Below, in pieces: positions 5,997-15,912 of a DNA stretch of 64,000 nt (positions within the stretch are counted from its first letter, which is position 1; the number at the start of each line of letters is the position of its first letter). Origin of the DNA: Stutzerimonas frequens (GTDB lineage: Bacteria > Pseudomonadota > Gammaproteobacteria > Pseudomonadales > Pseudomonadaceae). Below the pieces are notes generated by a model. It ran no database searches and was not told the origin of the DNA. It worked only from the letters and a program-made list of their open reading frames with translations. The DNA is taken from NCBI RefSeq assembly GCF_024448335.1, contig NZ_JAMOHM010000003.1:248001-312000 (forward strand), given 5' to 3'. The position numbers were made by a program, and so were the translations under genes.

Positions 5997-6161
5997 ATGA
6001 CGCATGCACGCCCCGATGTGCCACAGCCCGACCCGATCGTGCACGACCAGCCGGGCGACGTGCCGCAGGTACCCTGCGCCGACGAGCTGGACGAGCACAA
6101 ACCCGGCTCCCCCTATGGCAACCAGACGGTGGTGGATGCCGATAGCGCGCAGCCGGCCTGA
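5997..6161 (+). CDS. small acidic, proline-rich hypothetical protein (54 aa)
   Basis: Not recognised. The 54-aa frame starts at an ATG behind a very strong ribosome binding site (AAAAGGAGGAGG, spacing about 6), the main reason to call it real. The product is rich in Pro, Asp and Gln, has a single Cys (about residue 27), and has no hydrophobic segment, so it is probably a soluble disordered protein. It is divergent from glgE and converges on fdhE, with only 3 nt between the two stop codons. The position beside an AlgU-controlled glucan operon hints at a stress role, but this is inference. The frame is open further upstream (from 5658), but no good start is seen there. Confidence 0.55.
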   Translation: MTHARPDVPQPDPIVHDQPGDVPQVPCADELDEHKPGSPYGNQTVVDADSAQPA

Positions 6162-6164
6162 GCG

Positions 6165-7112
6165 CTACTCGCCAAAGACCAGCAGGGGGTTGTAGCCGCT
6201 TCTGGCATAGACGCCCTTGTCGGCCAGCATCAGGTCCAGCGGCAGGCTGGCAAGATCGTCGGCGACCGGGTCAGCGCGGCCCTGCAGTTGCCGCAGCACG
6301 ATCTTCAGGTAGCTTTCGCAGGCGCCGCAGGCTTCCGCCTGCACCGGCAGGAACGGCTCGCCCTGCTCATCGTCCAGCCCCAGATAGAGCAGCTGCCCAC
6401 CCGTCTCGCAGTTGCTGCACTTGACCCGCTCCAGGTGCCATTCCGTTGCACACAGCGCGCAGTGCAGGAAGCGCACGCCGCTGCGATACGGTTCGTTGTG
6501 CACCACGCTCGCTACGGGCGGCGAGCCACAGCAAGGGCACAAGGCCCGCGCCTCGGCCAGCGGTTGCGCTGGCGGACGTGGCAAGGCCGCCGCCAGGCGC
6601 ACCCAGGCCACCTGCAACGCTGCGGCCACCAGCGGCATCAGCCCGCGGGTCTCGGCGCTGCCGGCGCGCTGTTCCAGTACATCCTCGGCGATTGCCTGCA
6701 GTGCATCGGCATTCGCGTCACGCAGGGCCTGCAGCAGCGGTCTCTGCCGCTCACCGACATGCAGCGCCAGCGCATCGAGGATCGCGCGCAAATCACCCTG
6801 CCAGTCCAGATCGCGGCGCAACGCACGAAAGCCCAGCGGCGGCATGCGATGCTCCAAGGCTTGATCGAAGGCATCCGGCGCCGGACGCCAGGACGGTTCG
6901 CGCCCACTCAGGACCTGATGCTGGGCCTGTGCCAGGCGTGCCATGAAGTCGAGAAACTCGTCCAGCGCCGGCACCATGACCATCAGCTCGCGCAGGCGCA
7001 GCGCGCGGCGGCTGAACAGCTGGACGTCCGGTAGTACCACCTCTGGAGGCTCCATGATGGTGGTCGGCGCATAGCCGAACTCATGACCCGCCGCTCCGCG
7101 TTTTCCTTTCAT
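6165..7112 (-). CDS. fdhE: formate dehydrogenase accessory protein FdhE
   Basis: FdhE is a cytoplasmic rubredoxin-like protein needed for maturation of respiratory formate dehydrogenase. The 315-aa protein has a helical N-terminal half and a Cys-rich C-terminal half with four CxxC pairs: CPCCGS, CALC, CSNC and CGAC, the family hallmark. AAGGAA precedes the ATG at 7112. It is the last gene of the fdnGHI-fdhE operon, 19 nt after fdnI. In P. aeruginosa, as I recall, selA and selB follow this position; here the next gene is an unrelated convergent small ORF, so the selenocysteine insertion genes must be elsewhere. Confidence 0.93.
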   Translation of the reverse strand: MKGKRGAAGHEFGYAPTTIMEPPEVVLPDVQLFSRRALRLRELMVMVPALDEFLDFMARLAQAQHQVLSGREPSWRPAPDAFDQALEHRMPPLGFRALRRDLDWQGDLRAILDALALHVGERQRPLLQALRDANADALQAIAEDVLEQRAGSAETRGLMPLVAAALQVAWVRLAAALPRPPAQPLAEARALCPCCGSPPVASVVHNEPYRSGVRFLHCALCATEWHLERVKCSNCETGGQLLYLGLDDEQGEPFLPVQAEACGACESYLKIVLRQLQGRADPVADDLASLPLDLMLADKGVYARSGYNPLLVFGE

Positions 7113-7131
7113 GTTCGATTTCCTTGTTCAG

Positions 7132-7836
7132 TCATGTTTGGTTTCTCGAAGCCGCGGCATCGCCGGGCTCGCGATGGGGCAAGGCCGTCTCTTCGCCACG
7201 CTTGTCGCCGGCCATGACCTCGTCATACCAGAGCTTGTGGTGATGCCTGGCCCAGGCCGGGCTGACCCATCCCCGGGTCATCGCGCGAATCGAGCCCTTG
7301 ACCCAGATGGCCGAGTAGATGTGGATGATCAGCGTGAGGATGGCGACGAACGCCGTTACCGCGTGGATCAGCGCCGCCCAGCGCAGCGCCCAGATCGGCA
7401 TCTCGCTGGCCACCCAGGGTCGCCACAGCACCACACCTGTCACCAGCAGGACCGGCACCGTGGCCAGAAAAACCCAATACACCAGCTTTTGCCCGGCGTT
7501 GTTCTGGCCCACCGGCGGCAGCCGCTCGTCCCGGTTGGACAGCACGTCGCCGATCTGCCGCGCCCATTGCACGTCGTAGCGGCGGAACAGATTGGCGCGA
7601 AAGAAGCGCACCGCCTGGATCAGGAAGAACAGCGTCATGAACACACCGATGTACGGGTGCACGATGCGCGTCGGCTCCGGCCCGCCGAACAGTGCGGTGA
7701 GGCCGAAGAACGCCGGGTAGAACAGCGCCAGTCCGCTCAGCGTGAGCAGCACGAAGCAGATCGCGACGATCCAGTGGTTGGCCCGCGCCCAGGGGCCATA
7801 GCGCAGGATGCCTTTGCGTACGTTGGGATGACTCAT
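7132..7836 (-). CDS. fdnI: formate dehydrogenase gamma subunit, cytochrome b556
   Basis: Membrane subunit (234 aa) that anchors the formate dehydrogenase complex and passes electrons from the FdnH iron-sulfur clusters through b-type hemes to the quinone pool. About four hydrophobic helices are visible with histidines typical of the family: [14 protein letters not shown] near the N-terminus, a [17 protein letters not shown] helix, and [20 protein letters not shown]. The ATG overlaps the fdnH stop by 4 nt, indicating translational coupling. The hydrophilic C-terminal tail is on the cytoplasmic side by family topology. The symbol could equally be fdoI; sequence alone does not separate the E. coli Fdn and Fdo types. 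Confidence 0.92.
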
Positions 7837-8771
7837 GGCCGCCGCTCCTCGTCACGCAGATTCTGTTCACGGTCCGCCGAGGCTTTTTCCGCCTCGGGGT
7901 CGTCCTCCGGTTCTTCCTTCGGCCCCTTGGTCATGTAATGGAAGAAGCCGGCGAGTACGGACACGCCCAGCACCGCGGACATGATCGGCTTGGTCACGCC
8001 CTTCCACAGCTCCACCGTCGGGCTGATATGCGGATCCCTCGGCAGGCCACTGTAGATCTCCGGCTTGTCGGCGTGCTGCAGCACATAGATCACGTGGGTG
8101 CCGCCGACACCCGCCGGGTCGTAGATGCCGGCGTTCTCGTAGCCACGTTCGTTGAGTTTGCCGACCCGGTGCGCGCCGTAGTCGAGCATCTGGTCCTTGG
8201 TGCCGAACTGGATCGCGCCGGTCGGACAGCTTTTCACGCAAGCAGGCTCCAGGCCGTGATAGACGCGGTCGGAACAGAGCGTGCACTTGTAGGCCTTGTT
8301 GTCCTTCTTCGAGATGCGCGGAATGTCGAACGGGCAGCCTGCCACGCAGTAGCCGCAGCCGATGCAGTGCTCGGAGTTGAAGTCGACGATGCCGTTGGCG
8401 TACTGCACGATGGCGCCGGGCGACGGGCAGGCCTTCAGGCAGCCCGGCTCGGCGCAATGCATGCAGTTGTCCTTGCGAATCAGCCACTCCAGGCCGCCTT
8501 CCTCGTTTTCGTACTCGGAAAAGCGCATGACTTCGAACGATGACGGGGTCAGGTCCTGCGGCGCGTTATAGGTACCGTCGCATTCGCCGACCTCGTCGCG
8601 CAGGTCGTTCCACTCCATGCACGCCACCTGGCAGGCCTTGCAGCCGATGCACACCGACACGTCGATGAGCTTGGTCACCTTCTCCACGCCGCCGGAGCGG
8701 ATCTGCGGCGAAGGCTCGGTGGTCGCCGAACGCGCGATGATGTTCTGCAGGTTGATCTGGTCACCTCGCAT
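7833..8771 (-). CDS. fdnH: formate dehydrogenase beta subunit, 4x[4Fe-4S] ferredoxin-type
   Basis: Electron-transfer subunit of 312 aa linking the catalytic subunit to cytochrome b. Four cysteine clusters of ferredoxin type are visible: [37 protein letters not shown] and CTLCSDR followed by CVKSCP. A single C-terminal transmembrane helix (about residues 255-275) anchors it, followed by a charged tail. It starts 10 nt after fdnG behind AGGAGA and overlaps fdnI by 4 nt. By family knowledge it sits on the periplasmic face together with the Tat-exported catalytic subunit. Confidence 0.94.
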
Positions 8772-8781
8772 CAGGCGTCTC

Positions 8782-11700
8782 CTATAGCTTCTCGACGTTC
8801 ACCAGGAACGACTTGAATTCCGGGGTCTGGGTGTTGCCGTCGCCGACGAAGGGCGTCAGCGTATTGGTCAGGTGAGCCTTCCTGGCCACGCCGGTGAAGC
8901 CCCAGTGGATCGGGATACCGACCTGATGCACGGTGCGCCCGTCCACCTGAAGCGGCCGCAGGCGCTTGGTCACCACCGCCACGGCATCGATATGCCCGCG
9001 CTTGGAGCGCACGCGCACCTTTTCCCCCGCAGCGATGCCCAGCTCGCCAGCCAGCACCTCGCCGATCTCGACGAACTTTTCCGGCTGGACGATGGCATTG
9101 AGCAGCACGTGGGTCGTCCAGTAGTGGAAGTGTTCGGTGAGGCGGTAGGTGGTCGCCGCATACGGAAACTCCTCGAACGTGCCGAAGGTGTCGCGATCTT
9201 CCGCAAAGATGCGGGCAACCGGGTTGTGATAGGCCAGCGGGTTGTCCGGATGCAGCGGGTTGTTCGGAATCGGCGATTCCAGCGGCTCGTAGTGTTCGGG
9301 GAACGGCCCCTCGCCCAGCCACTCGCTGGCGAAGAAGTGCCCGGTGCCGCTCTCGGTGAGGATGAACGGCTTGACGTCGTCTTCCGGCGGCGCGGCCACC
9401 GGGTAGTCCGGCACATCGGCACCGACCCAGCGTTCACCGTTCCACCACACCAGCGCACGGTTCGGGTCCCAAGGCGTGCCGTCCGGGCGGGCCGACGCGC
9501 GGTTGTAGAGAATCCGCCGATTCAGCGGCCAGGCCCAGGCCCAGCCGAGGGTGACGCCGATGTCGTACGGGTCCGAGTTGTCGCGCCGGTCCATCATGTT
9601 GCCCTGCTCGGTCCAGGCGCCCGAGTAGATCCAGCAGCCGCAGGACGTCGAACCGTCCGCGCGCAGCTCGCCGAAGTCGTTGAGCAGCTCGCCCTTGCGA
9701 CGGATGATCCGCCCCTGGTCATCGATGTCCGCCAGCGCGCGGCCGTTGTATTCCTTGGCCAGCTCCGACGCGGCGGGATGCGCCGGGTCGCTGTAGTCCC
9801 AGGTCAGGTTGAGGATCGGCTCGGGGAAGGCGCCGCCCTCCTGCTGGTAGAGTTTCTGCAGGCGATGGAACAATCCGGCGAGAATCGCCGTGTCGGTCTT
9901 CGCCTCACCGGGCGGCGGTGCCGCCTGGTGGTGCCACTGCAGCCAGCGCGAGCTGTTGGTGATCGAGCCGTCGTCCTCGGCGAAGGTGGTGGTCGGCAGG
10001 CGGAACACCGCGGTCTGGATCTGGCTCGGATCGACGTCGTTGAACTCGCCATGGTTCTTCCAGAATTCGCCGGTTTCGGTGGCCAGCGGGTCCATGACGA
10101 CCAGCCATTGCAGCTTCGACAGCCCTTCCAGCACCTTGGCCTTGTTCGGGAACGCCGCGAGGATATTGAATCCCTGACAGAAAGCGCCGGTCATCTTGCC
10201 CTTGGTCATGTCGTTGACCGCGTAGAGCACGTCGTACAGCGGCTCGGACAGCTTGGGCAGCCAGTCGTAGCACCAGTCGTTATCGGCAGTTGCCGCCTCG
10301 CCATAGAACGCCTTCATCATGCTGACGAAGAAGCGCTCGTAGTGCTTCCAGTACGACACCTGATTGGGCAGCAACGGCTTGCGGATCTTCTCGCGGATGT
10401 AGTCCTCGTAGCGCTGGGCGCCAGCCGCCGGTAGCGTCATGTAGCCCGGCAGCAGATTGGACAGCAGGCCGATATCGGTCAGCCCCTGGATGTTGGAATG
10501 CCCGCGCAACGCATTGACCCCGCCGCCGGGCATGCCCATGTTGCCCAGCAGCAGCTGGACCATGGCGCCGGTGCGGATCATCTGCGCGCCAATGGAGTGC
10601 TGCGTCCAGCCCAGGGCATAGAGGATGGTCATGGTCTTGTCCGGCGCCGCGCTCTGTGCGAGCAGGTCCCAGAGCTGCAGGACCTTGGCCTGCGGCATGC
10701 CGCAGACGCGCTCGACCATCTCCACCGTGTAGCGGCTGTAGTGCTGGCGCATCAGCTGGAACACGCAGCGCGGGTGCTGCAGTGTCTCGTCGCGGCGGAC
10801 GAAGCCCTGCTCGTCGAGGTCGAAGTTCCAGGTGGCCTTGTCGTACTGGTGGCGCTCCTCGTCGTAGCCGGTGAACAGCCCGTCGTTGAACTCGAAGCCT
10901 TCGCGCACCAGGTGTGCCGCATCGGTGTAATGCAGCACGTATTCGTGGGCGTAGCGGTCATTCTCGATCAGGTAGCTGATCAGCCCGCCAAGGAAGACGA
11001 TATCTGTCCCGGTACGAATCCAGGCGTGATAGTCCGCCACCGCGGTGGTGCGGTTGTAGCGCGGGTCGATGGAGATCAGGATCGCGTCGCTGCGCTCCTT
11101 GGCCTGCATGACCCAGCGGAAGCCCACCGGATGCGCCTCGGCCGAATTCCCGCCCATGGACAGGACAATATTGGCATTGCGGATGTCGACCCAGCTGTTG
11201 GTCATGGCACCGCGACCGAATGAAGGGGCAAGACCTGCCACCGTCGGTCCGTGTCAGACGCGCGCCTGGTTGTCGAGTTTGAGAATACCCAGCGCCCGAG
11301 TGATCTTCTGCGTCAGGTACGCCGTCTCGTTGGTGCAGGCCGAGGCCGCCACCATCGAAGTGGTCATCCAGCGGTTGACCTGCCGCCCCTCCTCGTCCTG
11401 GCTCTCGAAGTTGCGGTCGCGGTCGTCCTTCATCAGGCGGGCGATGCGGTCGAGCGCCTCATCCCAGCTGATGCGCTTCCACTCATCGGTGCCCGGCTCG
11501 CGTACCAACGGGTAGCGCACCCGCGAATCGCTTCTGATGAAGTCGAGCACACCGGCGCCCCGCGGGCAGAGCGAACCGCGGCTGACCGGATGATCCGGAT
11601 CGCCCTCGACATGGAAGATGTGGTCATGGCTGTTGATCGCTCCGTCACCACGTGCATACAGCAACATGCCGCAGCCGACCGAGCAGTACGTGCATATGTT

Positions 11701-11847
11701 GCGGGTGACCTTGGCACCGGTGAGCTTGAAATGCCGCACCGAGGCCAGCGCCTCCTGCGGGGCGAACCCCATCATCGCCATGCTGGAAGCGCCCAATCCG
11801 GCTGCGCCGAACTTGAGAAACTGCCGCCGGGATACTCGTGCCGTCAT
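8782..11847 (-). CDS. fdnG: formate dehydrogenase alpha subunit, selenocysteine and molybdopterin containing
   Basis: Catalytic subunit that oxidises formate to CO2 at a Mo/W-bis-MGD centre in the periplasm. The frame is interrupted by one TGA (11254-11256) read as selenocysteine 198: the context is QARV[20 protein letters not shown], matching the Sec site of E. coli FdnG (Sec196). Including it the protein is 1021 aa, normal for the family. The N-terminus has a Tat signal ([14 protein letters not shown]), then a [4Fe-4S] motif [10 protein letters not shown]. The ATG at 11847 follows AGGAGA. Gene callers that stop at TGA would report two fragments (11254-11847 and 8782-11241). First gene of fdnGHI-fdhE. 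The 168-bp gap upstream shows no clear regulator site. Confidence 0.96.
11214..11256 (-). promoter_or_regulatory. SECIS element for selenocysteine insertion in fdnG
   Basis: The RNA immediately after the UGA folds into a bacterial SECIS-like hairpin inside the coding sequence. An outer 6-bp stem GACCGA/UCGGUC (11244-11249 with 11214-11219) and an apical 4-bp stem GGCA/UGCC enclose the loop GGUCU. The GGUCU apical loop at this distance from the UGA is the hallmark recognised by SelB in the E. coli fdhF and fdnG elements. It supports recoding of the TGA over a frame-breaking mutation. Confidence 0.88.
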
Positions 11848-12005
11848 CGGTATCTCCTGTCATGAATGCTCGGCTCAACTGCTAGAGGGTCGACTGGGTA
11901 CGGCTGGCAGAGGTTCAGACGGGATGACGGGCGGCTCTACCGCCGGGGATGCAAGGTGGTCGGAATGCGCTGCGTCCCGTCGGAAGCGTGACTGCGAGGA
12001 TGCAT

Positions 12006-12026
12006 AAAGGGCCGCTTAGCGGCCCT
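12006..12026 (-). terminator. hairpin overlapping the stop codon of the polymerase gene
   Basis: On the minus strand AGGGCCGC-TAA-GCGGCCCT is a perfect 8-bp stem whose 3-nt loop is the stop codon itself, followed by TTTAT. It probably ends transcription of the SDR-Ku-polymerase unit. The T tract is short, so strength is uncertain. Confidence 0.6.
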
Positions 12027-12936
12027 CGCGCAACCGCTCGAGCAGCTCCCGTCCCAACCGCTGGCGGGTGTTGCCGTAGTCGGACCAGGGGTCGTCGCTG
12101 CGCGTACTCAGGTAGTCGCGGACGTTGCCTAGCCGCCACTGATCGGCGCCCTCCAGGTGGCGCACTTCTTCCAGGCTCACCGGCAGCGACACGCCAAGGC
12201 CGGGCCGCGCCCGCACCGAGTAGGCGGCGACGGTACTGGCGCCCTTCTGGTTGCGCAGGTAGTCGACAAAGATGCGCCCAACACGATTCTGCGGGCCCAT
12301 CTTGTCGACGATCAGCTGCGGCGACTCCCGCGCCAGCCTCTCCGTCACCGAGCGCGCGAAGCTGCGCGCGCAATCCCAGTCGTGGCGCCGCTCGATCGGC
12401 ACCACCACATGCATCCCGCGCCCGCCGCTGGTCTTGAGGAAGGCGCGCAGCCCCAGCTCGTCCAGCAGCGCCAGGGTCAGCTCGGTAGCCTCGACCATGC
12501 TCGCCCAGGGCAGTGCCGGGTCCGGATCCAGATCGAAGATCACCCGGTCCGGTCGCTCGATGCGATCGCTGCGGGCGTTCCAGGTATGGAATTCGACGCT
12601 GCCCATCTGCACCGCCTCGATGACGGCGGTGATGTTGTCGGCTTGGATCAACCGGGCGTGCTCGGGATCGAGGTTTTTCGGCAGCGCACGCATGTGCGGC
12701 ATCTTCAACCGGCCGCAATGACGCTGGAAGAAACTCTCACCGCCTATACCTTCCGGCGCGCGGACGATGGAAAGCGGTCGCCCGGCGAGGTGTGGCACCA
12801 GCCAGTCGGCCACCGCCAGGTAGTACTCTGCCAGGGCCAGCTTGGTGGTGCCGCTTGTCTCGTCGATCACCCGCTGATGGCTGCTGATGCCGACACCGCC
12901 TACCAGTGGGCGAGCGCTGTCCTTTCGCGCGGCCAT
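12016..12936 (-). CDS. stand-alone LigD-type DNA polymerase/primase (NHEJ PolDom)
   Basis: This 306-aa protein matches only the polymerase domain of LigD, which fills gaps and adds (ribo)nucleotides at double-strand breaks during Ku-dependent end joining. The metal-binding pair is present in FDLDPDP, followed by the SGGRGMHVVVP substrate-binding strand, and the third catalytic Asp in FVDYLRNQKG, so it should be active. It begins with the domain-start motif GGVGISSHQRVI, so there is no sign of a lost ligase or phosphoesterase domain. Most Pseudomonas LigD proteins are roughly 840-aa three-domain enzymes. The gene starts 3 nt after the Ku stop codon and is surely co-expressed with it. No ATP-dependent ligase is present in this window. 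Confidence 0.88.
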   Translation of the reverse strand: MAARKDSARPLVGGVGISSHQRVIDETSGTTKLALAEYYLAVADWLVPHLAGRPLSIVRAPEGIGGESFFQRHCGRLKMPHMRALPKNLDPEHARLIQADNITAVIEAVQMGSVEFHTWNARSDRIERPDRVIFDLDPDPALPWASMVEATELTLALLDELGLRAFLKTSGGRGMHVVVPIERRHDWDCARSFARSVTERLARESPQLIVDKMGPQNRVGRIFVDYLRNQKGASTVAAYSVRARPGLGVSLPVSLEEVRHLEGADQWRLGNVRDYLSTRSDDPWSDYGNTRQRLGRELLERLREGR

Positions 12937-12939
12937 GCC

Positions 12940-13896
12940 TCAGCTGGCCTTCTTGCTGGATTTGCTGCTCGCCGCCGGTGCCTTGCGTGTGCGTGACGAG
13001 CTGGACGACTTGCTGGTCTTGGCCTTGCTCGCAGGCTTGGATTTGGCTGGCGCCTTTTCCGGCGCGTCGTCCTCTTCGTCCGCCTCGGCGGCGCGCGCCT
13101 TGCCCGGCTTGGCAGCCAGGCTGCGCTTGAGCAGCTCGGTGAGGTCGATGACATCCGCCGAGCGGCGATCCACCGCCTCTTCCGGCCCGCCCACGGCTTC
13201 CAGCTTGCCTTCGCGTGCCTTCTTCTCCACCAGGTCCATGATCTGGTCCTGGAAGGTGTCCTTGTACTGCTCCGGCTTCCACTTCTCGGTCATGTCTTCC
13301 ACCAGACGCTTGGCCATGTCCAGTTCGCGCTCGGCCAGGTCCGGATCGAGCGCTTCGTCCTTCAGTTCGAGGTACTCGACGCCGCGCACCTCGTCGGCCC
13401 AGCGCAGGGTGTTCATCACCAGCGCCTTGCCCAGCGGCATCACCACCGCCAGATGCTGCTTGTTGCGCAGCACCACGTTGGCGATGCCGACCTTGCCGGT
13501 CTGGATCAGCGTCTCACGCAAGAGCGCATAGACCTTTTCCCCACGCCGGTCCGGGGTCAGGTAGTACGGCGTGTCGATGTAGAGAAAGGAGATGTCCTTG
13601 GCATCGACGAAGGCGACGATGTCCACGGTCTGCGTGGCCTTGGGATGCGCCGCCTTGATCTCGTCGTCGCTGATGACCACGTAGTGGCCCTTCTCGTACT
13701 CGACGCCCTTGACGATGTTCTCGCTGTCGATGTCCTCGCCAGTGGTCTTGTTGATGCGCTTGTAACCGACCCGATCCATGCTGCGCTTGTCCAGCCAGTC
13801 GAAATCGATGCCCTGCCGCGTAGTGGCCGGCACCAGCGCCACCGGGATGTGTACCAGTCCGAAACTGACCGCGCCTTTCCAGATTGTGCGTGGCAT
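12940..13896 (-). CDS. ku: Ku protein for non-homologous end joining
   Basis: Bacterial Ku (318 aa) forms a homodimeric ring that binds DNA ends and recruits LigD. The start TIWKGAVSFGLVHIPVAL is the canonical Ku N-terminus; the core beta-barrel reaches about residue 250, with ALDPDLAERELDMAKRLVEDM typical of the family. It is followed by a 55-60 residue low-complexity tail rich in Lys, Ala and Ser, as in other bacterial Ku proteins with DNA-binding tails. AAGGAG lies before the ATG at 13896. It sits 35 nt behind the SDR gene and 3 nt before the polymerase gene, so the three probably form one unit. Confidence 0.95.
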   Translation of the reverse strand: MPRTIWKGAVSFGLVHIPVALVPATTRQGIDFDWLDKRSMDRVGYKRINKTTGEDIDSENIVKGVEYEKGHYVVISDDEIKAAHPKATQTVDIVAFVDAKDISFLYIDTPYYLTPDRRGEKVYALLRETLIQTGKVGIANVVLRNKQHLAVVMPLGKALVMNTLRWADEVRGVEYLELKDEALDPDLAERELDMAKRLVEDMTEKWKPEQYKDTFQDQIMDLVEKKAREGKLEAVGGPEEAVDRRSADVIDLTELLKRSLAAKPGKARAAEADEEDDAPEKAPAKSKPASKAKTSKSSSSSRTRKAPAASSKSSKKAS

Positions 13897-13931
13897 ACCC
13901 TGTACTCCTTCGCGTAGGTGCCGGCCTGCGG

Positions 13932-14789
13932 TCAGCCGTTGACCACGGTGCCGCCGTTGACGTGAATCACCTGCCCACTGACATAGGACGCATCGCTGCT
14001 GGCCAGATAGACGTAGGCCGGCGCCACCTCTTCAGGCTGGCCGGGCCGTTTCATCGGCACGTTGGAGCCGAACTCGGCGACCTTGTCGGCATCGAAGGTG
14101 GAGGGAATCAGGGGCGTCCAGATCGGTCCCGGCGCCACCGAGTTCACCCGGATGCCGCGCTCGGCCAGGCTCATGGCCAGGGCACGGGTGAAGGCGACGA
14201 TGGCGCCCTTGGTGGAGGAATAGTCGATCAGCATCGGGTTGCCCTTGTAGGCGGTCACCGAGCTGGTGTTGATGATCGAGGCGCCTTGCTGCAGGTGCGG
14301 CAACGCCACCTGGGTCAGCTGGAACATGCCGAACACGTTGGTACGGAAGGTCTGCTCCCACTGCTCCGGCGGGATGTCCTCGAAACGATCACGGGGATGC
14401 TGCTCGGCAGCATTGTTGACCAGGATGTCCAGCTTGCCGAACTGCCCCAGCGTCTCGTCCACGACCTTGCGGCATACATCGCGGTCGGCCACGTCGCCGG
14501 CGAAGGTCAGGCAGCGCCGGCCGTGTTGCTCGACGTCCTTGCGTGTCTGCTCGGCGTCCTGATGCTGGTCGAGGTAGAGGATCGCCACGTCGGCGCCTTC
14601 GCGAGCGAACAGCACCGCCACCGAGCGACCGATACCGCTGTCGCCGCCGGTGATGACGGCGACCTTGCCGGCGAGCTTGCCAGCGGCCTTGTAGTCCTCG
14701 CCGCGATATTCCGGGCGCGGGTTCATCAGCCCTTCCTTGCCGGGTTCCGCCTGCTGCTGTGGGGGTAGGGTCTGATTGTCGTCCGCCAT
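13932..14789 (-). CDS. SDR-family oxidoreductase (YghA-like)
   Basis: NAD(P)-dependent short-chain dehydrogenase of 285 aa with a roughly 40-residue hydrophilic N-terminal extension (PEYRGEDYKAAGKLAGK), typical of the YghA/general-stress SDR subgroup. Cofactor motif TGGDSGIGRSVA; NNAAEQH after the fourth strand; catalytic Ser in SSVTAYKGN and Tyr-x3-Lys in YSSTKGA; PGPIWTPLIPS follows. The substrate is unknown; relatives act on aldehydes or ketones. GGAGG precedes the ATG. Same strand as ku, 35 nt upstream, which suggests joint expression in stress or stationary phase. No clear sigma site could be assigned in the short region 14790-14867. Confidence 0.88.
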   Translation of the reverse strand: MADDNQTLPPQQQAEPGKEGLMNPRPEYRGEDYKAAGKLAGKVAVITGGDSGIGRSVAVLFAREGADVAILYLDQHQDAEQTRKDVEQHGRRCLTFAGDVADRDVCRKVVDETLGQFGKLDILVNNAAEQHPRDRFEDIPPEQWEQTFRTNVFGMFQLTQVALPHLQQGASIINTSSVTAYKGNPMLIDYSSTKGAIVAFTRALAMSLAERGIRVNSVAPGPIWTPLIPSTFDADKVAEFGSNVPMKRPGQPEEVAPAYVYLASSDASYVSGQVIHVNGGTVVNG

Positions 14790-14867
14790 GAAAAATCCTC
14801 CGTCAAGGTAGTGAGCCTGTCTTCGGAGGACTGGAACGCTGCGAGAAAAGTTTCTGCGGGGCGATGA

Positions 14868-14889
14868 GAGGGCCCTGTACAGGGCCCTC
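14868..14889 (-). terminator. 22-bp perfect palindrome after mexS (probable terminator)
   Basis: GAGGGCCCTGT followed by its exact reverse complement lies 6 nt beyond the mexS stop codon. It would form a strong GC-rich hairpin in the mexS transcript and separate it from the SDR gene downstream. No T tract follows directly, so it may be a 3'-end stabiliser and not a full intrinsic terminator. Confidence 0.5.
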
Positions 14890-14895
14890 GGATGG

Positions 14896-15912
14896 TCAGT
14901 TCAGCGTCAGCACGACACGACCACGGGGTACGCCGCTTTCGACGTACTGGTGGGCCTCGACTGCCTGCTCGAAGGGGAACTGGCGGTCGAGCTGTGGCCA
15001 GATCAGCCGGTCCACGGTGAGCTGGTTGATATGCTGCAGCGCACGCTCCACGGCCTCGCGGTTCTGCTCGATGCCCAGCTCCGGCTGCCCGGTGAAGTCG
15101 CACAGGCAATGCAGGAAGAACTTGAAGTTCTTTTTGAAGGCCGCGCAGACCGGTAGCGCGGTCTCGTTGCCGCCGTTCATGCCATAGAGGATCAGCTTGC
15201 CCAGCGGCGCCATGACATCGCCGAGCAGCTTCATCTGCGAGCCGCCGCAGGCATCCAGCACCACCTCGACACCGCGCCCTTCGGTCAGCTTCTGCAGGCG
15301 ACCGACCAGGTCTTCTTCCTCGGTGACGATCACCGTCTCGGCACCCAGTTCACGCAGGTAGTCACGGTCTTCGCTGGTGTCACAGGTGGCGATCACCCGT
15401 CCGCCCAGCGCCTTGGCCAGCTGCACGGCAGCCGGGCCGGTGCAATGCGCGGCCTGGTTGATCAGCACGTACTGACCGGGCTCCAGCTGAGCCAGTTCGA
15501 CCAAGGCGAAATAGCTCACCAGCATCGGCGTGTAGTGGATCGCCGCCTCGCTGGCGCTGAGCATGTCCGGGTAATGCACCAGGGCCTGCTGCGGCAGCAG
15601 CGCGTGTTCGGCATACAGCGGGTACTGATTGAGATCGTGGGCGGGGAAACCCGCCACCTGGTCGCCGACGCTGAAGCCCTGGACGCCCTCGCCCACCGCC
15701 AGCACCTCGCCCGCCACCTCGCTGCCGAGCCCGGCGGGCAGACGCGCATGGCGCGGCGCCAGGTCCTGCCGCCAGAGCACGTCGTTCCAGCTCACGCCGA
15801 CGGCGCGCACGCCGATCAGGACCTCGCCTGGGCCGGCAACCGGCACCGCGCGCTCTTCCTGACGCAACACGTTGGCCGGGCCGAACTGATGAAAACGGAT
15901 GATGCGGGACAT
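14896..15912 (-). CDS. mexS: MexS-type zinc-independent MDR oxidoreductase (NADPH:quinone reductase-like)
   Basis: Medium-chain dehydrogenase/reductase of 338 aa. It shows the GroES-like N-terminal domain (GEVLIGVRAVGVSWNDVLWR) and a Rossmann region reading YVLINQAAHCTGPAAVQLAKALGG. The classical zinc-binding Cys/His set of alcohol dehydrogenases is not evident. It is divergent from mexT and next to mexEF-oprN, exactly the P. aeruginosa arrangement. There MexS loss causes MexT-dependent pump induction, probably by build-up of a reactive metabolite. A MexT-box-like site oriented toward this gene lies at 15996-16019. GAGGGG precedes the ATG. Confidence 0.9.
   Translation of the reverse strand: MSRIIRFHQFGPANVLRQEERAVPVAGPGEVLIGVRAVGVSWNDVLWRQDLAPRHARLPAGLGSEVAGEVLAVGEGVQGFSVGDQVAGFPAHDLNQYPLYAEHALLPQQALVHYPDMLSASEAAIHYTPMLVSYFALVELAQLEPGQYVLINQAAHCTGPAAVQLAKALGGRVIATCDTSEDRDYLRELGAETVIVTEEEDLVGRLQKLTEGRGVEVVLDACGGSQMKLLGDVMAPLGKLILYGMNGGNETALPVCAAFKKNFKFFLHCLCDFTGQPELGIEQNREAVERALQHINQLTVDRLIWPQLDRQFPFEQAVEAHQYVESGVPRGRVVLTLN

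Follow-up and report, generated by a model that had tools for sequence, protein, structure and literature searches.

The locus described here raises the question of why, in Stutzerimonas frequens, the gene for the end-joining protein Ku should be followed by a gene for a LigD-type polymerase and by no ligase. It lies on a stretch of 64,000 nucleotides (hereafter the window; positions 248,001 to 312,000 of contig NZ_JAMOHM010000003.1, RefSeq assembly GCF_024448335.1) from a genome of 4.38 Mb in 32 contigs with a completeness of 100. A preliminary description of the window had noted a short-chain dehydrogenase/reductase (SDR) gene, ku and a 306-aa polymerase on one strand with gaps of 35 nt and 3 nt, and the coordinates of the open reading frames (ORFs) bear this out. 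Our analysis suggests, with a probability of roughly 0.64, that Ku and an extra polymerase are encoded in one operon, that Ku recruits this polymerase to DNA breaks which a distantly encoded LigD then seals, and that the polymerase represents a separate, older lineage. The features of the locus are as follows.

13932..14789, minus strand: SDR gene (PRK06701-like), 285 aa, heading the presumed operon; from ORF and family scans.
12940..13896, minus strand: ku, 318 aa, the genome's sole Ku match; from ORF and family scans.
12937..12939, minus strand: gap between ku and the polymerase gene, 3 nt, GGC between TGA and ATG.
12016..12936, minus strand: gene for the stand-alone LigD-type polymerase (PolDom), 306 aa; from the ORF, matches to PF21686/TIGR02778 and to 2FAO, and residues D135/D137/D225.

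The family scans assigned the SDR to NF005214/PRK06701 (452.9 bits, cut-off 413) and the product of ku, which matched PF02735, to the bacterial Ku proteins (TIGR02772, 307.8 bits, cut-off 150). The 306-aa protein was recognized as a LigD-type polymerase by both LigD_Prim-Pol PF21686 (288 bits, cut-off 27.4) and TIGR02778 (278.3, cut-off 214.7), and it consists of the polymerase domain alone, thus not being a three-domain LigD. The best of five matches among solved structures was the Pseudomonas aeruginosa LigD polymerase 2FAO (358 bits), with an alignment that covers almost the whole of both sequences (query residues 6-302, chain 9-306 of 309) and in which D135, D137 and D225 fall on Asp residues of 2FAO. 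All 51 Stutzerimonas stand-alone rows and all 83 LigD rows have the same Asp triad, the 134 rows having been selected by identity from 162 with repeats of one genome included, and the earlier statement that all three catalytic Asp positions are retained is thereby confirmed. The role of the conserved Asp residues has been described for Mycobacterium tuberculosis (passages of PMC8656161). In a thresholded comparison, the only positions specific to the stand-alone proteins where the LigDs agree among themselves were R72, V105, F134, R173 and V224, all of them conservative changes, and 2FAO shares the V at the position of V224. The stand-alone polymerase is under purifying selection, with a median ratio of non-synonymous to synonymous substitution rates (dN/dS) of 0.24, as compared to 0.17 for the LigD polymerase domain, 0.10 for Ku and 0.11 for the SDR (21 pairs from 7 genomes), and 101 of the 102 polymerase-domain matches in the genus, LigD copies included, were free of internal stop codons.

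A search of the whole genome for LigD domains and other ku copies, as proposed in the preliminary description, returned one Ku, two polymerase, one phosphoesterase and two ATP-dependent ligase domains. The lone phosphoesterase domain belongs to a complete LigD of 855 aa with all three domains in the order phosphoesterase-ligase-polymerase, whose gene (6100-8667 of locus L007) is located approximately 38 kb from the stand-alone polymerase gene on the same contig and the same strand. Since the genome holds a complete LigD, the original statement that Ku is paired with a polymerase and no ligase is true of the locus only and not of the genome. Two possibilities had been considered at that point: a full LigD elsewhere with the polymerase as an addition, which the complete LigD and the second polymerase domain substantiate, and end joining through a separate ligase, which is not needed. 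A recent split of LigD, with the ligase and phosphoesterase parts as the other half of the divided gene, is excluded, because the distant LigD is intact and contains the only phosphoesterase domain detected in this genome.

The second ATP-dependent ligase domain lies on a different contig and is flanked by two frames that, judged by eye, resemble an Lhr helicase and a nuclease of the metallo-beta-lactamase type. The presence of this ligase domain might suggest that the stand-alone polymerase serves excision repair together with it, for which mycobacterial Prim-PolC and LigC provide a precedent (PMC5663958, in part). However, the polymerase gene sits beside ku, while that ligase is encoded on another contig amid other genes, and we consider a role of this kind improbable.

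The pairing of ku with a stand-alone polymerase is conserved in the genus. Among 54 Stutzerimonas genomes, each at least 90% complete, the polymerase domain was present in 52 and Ku in the same 52, and neither was found in G008 and G022. Forty-eight genomes had two polymerase domains, G037 had three, and G035, G042 and G049 had one each. A polymerase frame of less than 420 aa follows ku on the same strand within 1.2 kb in 49 of the 52 ku-bearing genomes, and in G039 the short frame is present at the end of another contig, owing to a contig break. Since this order recurs across the genus, the arrangement is not due to chance, and the locus represents a ku plus stand-alone polymerase unit of the kuA-polK kind, conserved in the genus. 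The first in-frame ATG or GTG was found at -4 to 18 nt after ku in 40 of 43 Stutzerimonas rows (single-genome repeats counted), with L048 (50 nt), L058 (49 nt) and L176 (123 nt) as exceptions. In the 41 genomes that carry the stand-alone gene and LigD on one contig, the distance to the first-listed LigD had a median of 40.0 kb (range 20.1-174.3), and both genes were on the same strand in 37. A conserved gene order, QOR-SDR-ku-POL (POL, polymerase), was seen among the 80 named ku loci; 32 of them showed SDR-ku-POL, two more stop before POL and 46 had other arrangements, several of which (e.g. L070-L073, L077) were without both polymerase and LigD in the stretches examined. The ku of the window is 95% identical to those of S. 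kunmingensis and P. songnenensis, which places the window within Stutzerimonas or next to it. In G037 (L174, L175) the extra LigD copy L175 falls into the clade of unlinked LigDs described below, outside the Stutzerimonas LigDs, and in G011 (L177, L016) the ku and LigD frames look broken, which may reflect assembly errors.

The origin of the stand-alone polymerase was addressed with a polymerase-domain tree of 86 of 162 rows (thinned at 88% identity, fragment L004 having been excluded earlier) plus 2FAO, with a careful version of 61 rows from which 18 outgroup and 8 further close rows had been removed, and with a phosphoesterase-ligase tree of 48 of the 97 LigD rows. The Stutzerimonas stand-alones formed a single clade (support 100/99). 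The LigDs were divided into a clade linked to ku (100/97) and a mostly unlinked clade (99/94) that contains the LigD of P. aeruginosa and that of the window's own genome. Exceptions are P. mangrovi, whose ku-linked LigD groups with the unlinked ones, and P. luteola, P. asuensis and G111, whose LigDs are linked to ku and belong to neither clade. The phosphoesterase-ligase tree recovered the same two clades with the same exceptions (Shimodaira-Hasegawa-like approximate likelihood ratio test, 99 and 99). In the best polymerase-domain tree the stand-alones branch beside the ku-linked LigD clade (93/82).

One conceivable source of the second polymerase is a recent duplication of the polymerase domain in the genome's own LigD, as both occur in one genome and share 51% identity over 291 columns. 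This origin was ruled out by the approximately unbiased (AU) test, in which placing the stand-alones with the LigD of their own genus was rejected at p-AU 1.2e-5 and a cost of 62.9 log-likelihood units, and with the stand-alone clade standing apart at 100/99 we regard it as extremely improbable. The stand-alone polymerase appears to be a separate, older lineage and no copy of the LigD domain of the genus. Its most likely source is a ku-linked LigD, of which only the polymerase end would have remained after truncation had removed the phosphoesterase and ligase parts.

A related arrangement was found elsewhere in the family. The polymerase domain was present in 80 of 148 family genomes, 61 of them outside the genus, and more than one match was obtained in five of these 61 (G061, G071, G073, G131 and G155), with a frame of less than 420 aa only in G073 and G131, both of genus g5. 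In these two genomes (L119, L121), the only two with two polymerase domains among the 11 g5 genomes with a match, the order is ku-polymerase-SDR with a stand-alone polymerase and an unlinked full LigD. The g5 stand-alone occupies the slot in which other loci have a ku-linked LigD, and in the best tree the g5 proteins lie inside the ku-linked LigD clade. The g5 arrangement is possibly an independent case; a grouping of the Stutzerimonas and g5 stand-alones was not rejected (p 0.11). In a sample of the class the polymerase domain was matched in 33 of 276 genomes. Several gammaproteobacterial loci (L139, L140, L141, L146 and L147) have separate neighbouring phosphoesterase/ligase and polymerase frames, some of them beside ku, and such short polymerase frames are split LigD sets, unlike the Stutzerimonas unit.

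How might Ku, the extra polymerase and LigD work together? The SDR, ku and polymerase genes are presumed to be co-transcribed as one operon, from which Ku would be made alongside an additional LigD-type polymerase that is an independent protein. Ku would bind the broken DNA ends and recruit this polymerase by a predicted interaction, and the polymerase would add or fill a few nucleotides, probably ribonucleotides, since these are preferred by LigD polymerase domains. In the predicted division of labour, the complete three-domain LigD, whose gene lies some 38 kb from the locus, would then trim and seal the break in trans. In M. tuberculosis, Ku was reported to bind the polymerase domain of LigD more tightly than the ligase domain (passages of PMC9638933). 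The same passages suggest that M. tuberculosis Ku recruits LigD mainly via the polymerase domain, and a stand-alone polymerase encoded next to ku, with LigD elsewhere, might accordingly act as a brake or decoy that occupies the polymerase-binding site of Ku and limits or times the recruitment of LigD, catalysis being secondary. The Asp triad retained in all 51 stand-alone rows would be superfluous in a pure decoy, and we judge this function to be unlikely.

Several observations weigh against the proposed cooperation of Ku and the extra polymerase. In G035 and G049, ku adjoins a full LigD and there is no stand-alone polymerase; in G042 (L161), a 99% complete draft, ku and the stand-alone are present while no LigD was detected by either polymerase or phosphoesterase domain; and L070, whose Ku belongs to the Stutzerimonas Ku clade and forms a long branch there, has SDR and ku with no polymerase nearby. 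The stand-alone of G021 (L176) carries one in-frame TAG within the domain match, close to the C-terminus; the last residue of its frame is 277 of 306, and it is this frame that starts 123 nt after ku. Furthermore, the stand-alone evolves faster than the LigD polymerase domain (0.24 vs 0.17). This dN/dS, the highest of the four genes compared, and the stop codon of G021 could be expected of a functionless, decaying leftover. Yet the ratio is far below 1, the Asp triad is intact, all but one of the 102 matches lack internal stops and the gene has been retained beside ku in 49 of 52 genomes, and decay is thus a poor explanation.

The proposed origin likewise meets with contrary evidence. The tested clades were named only after the tree had been seen, which weakens the AU tests with the exception of that on the own-genus LigD, and a grouping of the stand-alones with the unlinked LigD clade was not rejected either (p 0.33). 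In a Ku tree of 55 rows chosen by hand, Stutzerimonas ku groups with P. indica, PIC25 and P. kuykendallii (85, unstarred), whose loci have no polymerase near ku, and no remnants of the lost LigD parts were seen in the leaders inspected. Because the nearest ku relatives are without a polymerase near ku, a foreign stand-alone gene that was inserted behind ku accounts for the locus as well as a truncation in place. An insertion would also fit P. kuykendallii (L073), in which the long frames that come directly after ku look, by eye, like the GlgE and TreS genes of the window. The best tree, which sets the stand-alone beside the polymerase domains of ku-linked LigDs, and the g5 stand-alone in the slot of a ku-linked LigD argue against it, and we regard insertion as a serious candidate at somewhat less than even odds. 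If truncation of a ku-linked LigD did give rise to the stand-alone, the genomes may record the meeting of two end-joining ligase lineages, in which sealing passed to the unlinked LigD and the ku-linked one was reduced to a polymerase brought to breaks by Ku, perhaps twice, i.e. in Stutzerimonas and in g5, whose shared origin is not rejected by the test given above. We offer this history tentatively, as a possible but rather doubtful one.

With regard to expression, a conserved promoter-like element was identified upstream of the SDR gene by alignment (26 rows chosen by hand) and pattern search.

14825..14854 (3008-3037 of L001), minus strand: promoter-like element GAAACTTTT-N13-AGTCCTCC.

The element, which in our view resembles a promoter of the extracytoplasmic function (ECF) type, occurs with this one fixed spacing upstream of SDR in 44 of 181 loci (single-genome repeats counted), and in exact form in 31 of 34 named loci of the Stutzerimonas type. 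As it is also carried by L071 and L072, which are without the polymerase, it belongs to SDR-ku rather than to the polymerase. The exact pattern gave three matches in the window's own genome, one being the SDR site, as compared to two for a reversed control; no second convincing site was found there, and a GGAAC variant gave no match. Allowing up to three mismatches, no site was found in L007 or L008 and two in the window (chance mean 1.30), namely the exact SDR site and one with three mismatches. The element was not seen upstream of ligD in nine aligned rows, three of them from the window's own genome, and scans of 11700-15200 for sigma-70 promoters and terminators returned none of either. The genes between ligD and ku encode GlgE, alpha-amylase plus maltokinase-cap, CBM48/alpha-amylase, isoamylase-type and 4-alpha-glucanotransferase domains, and we take them for a glycogen/trehalose neighbourhood of the kind found in Pseudomonas. 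With regard to a general-stress control, previously proposed on account of the SDR, the promoter-like element and the glycogen/trehalose-type genes between ligD and ku are only suggestive. Downstream of the polymerase gene, a formate dehydrogenase-N alpha gene (window 8782-11847, minus strand) appears as two ORFs in the same frame, separated by a TGA (11254-11256) that most probably codes for selenocysteine; among loci L039-L086, only some of those from Stutzerimonas have this gene behind the polymerase.

The stand-alone polymerase resembles the polymerase domain of P. aeruginosa LigD (2FAO/2FAQ/2FAR) over nearly its full length and in its catalytic Asp residues, although the latter is the C-terminal domain of LigD while the Stutzerimonas polymerase is a separate protein of another clade. 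Another likeness is to the two extra polymerases of Mycobacterium smegmatis, presumably those named PolD1 and PolD2. These show the in vitro activity of a LigD polymerase domain (cited in PMC5124664). By gene arrangement, the closest parallel drawn here is kuA-polK of Streptomyces, in which ku lies beside a stand-alone LigD-type polymerase gene with the ligases elsewhere, and which, according to passages of the same paper, is conserved in all tested strains but one, ligD having been detected in 29 of 38 Streptomyces genomes (PMC5124664); for S. coelicolor, ku beside a separate polymerase gene had been described in PMC1378119 (also in part). A polK single mutant was only weakly sensitive, and PolK was proposed to act as a ligase adapter (PMC5124664). 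Streptomyces differs in having a further locus, ligC-polR, and S. ambofaciens has three ku genes, as opposed to one ku, an upstream SDR and one complete phosphoesterase-ligase-polymerase LigD in Stutzerimonas. Multiple copies of the polymerase domain were reported for 37% of bacteria positive for non-homologous end joining (passages of PMC7719229). The pairing of ku with a stand-alone polymerase is thus already known from Streptomyces, and Stutzerimonas adds a new example from the gammaproteobacteria, with an interesting origin; a literature search for Stutzerimonas or P. stutzeri together with LigD found nothing in a collection that is not exhaustive, and no description of a two-lineage history of LigD was found in the literature passages compared.

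As a tractable gammaproteobacterial genus, Stutzerimonas allows the contribution of the Ku-linked polymerase to be separated genetically from that of LigD, a question that, as far as the passages of PMC5124664 go, the work on Streptomyces left open. Moreover, the trees divide LigD of the Pseudomonadaceae into at least two lineages, so that "the Pseudomonas LigD" is no single thing. If the paring-down of one of these lineages alongside the other is true, bacterial end joining would be divided between one module of Ku and polymerase and another, encoded apart from it, for sealing, as it is in eukaryotes.

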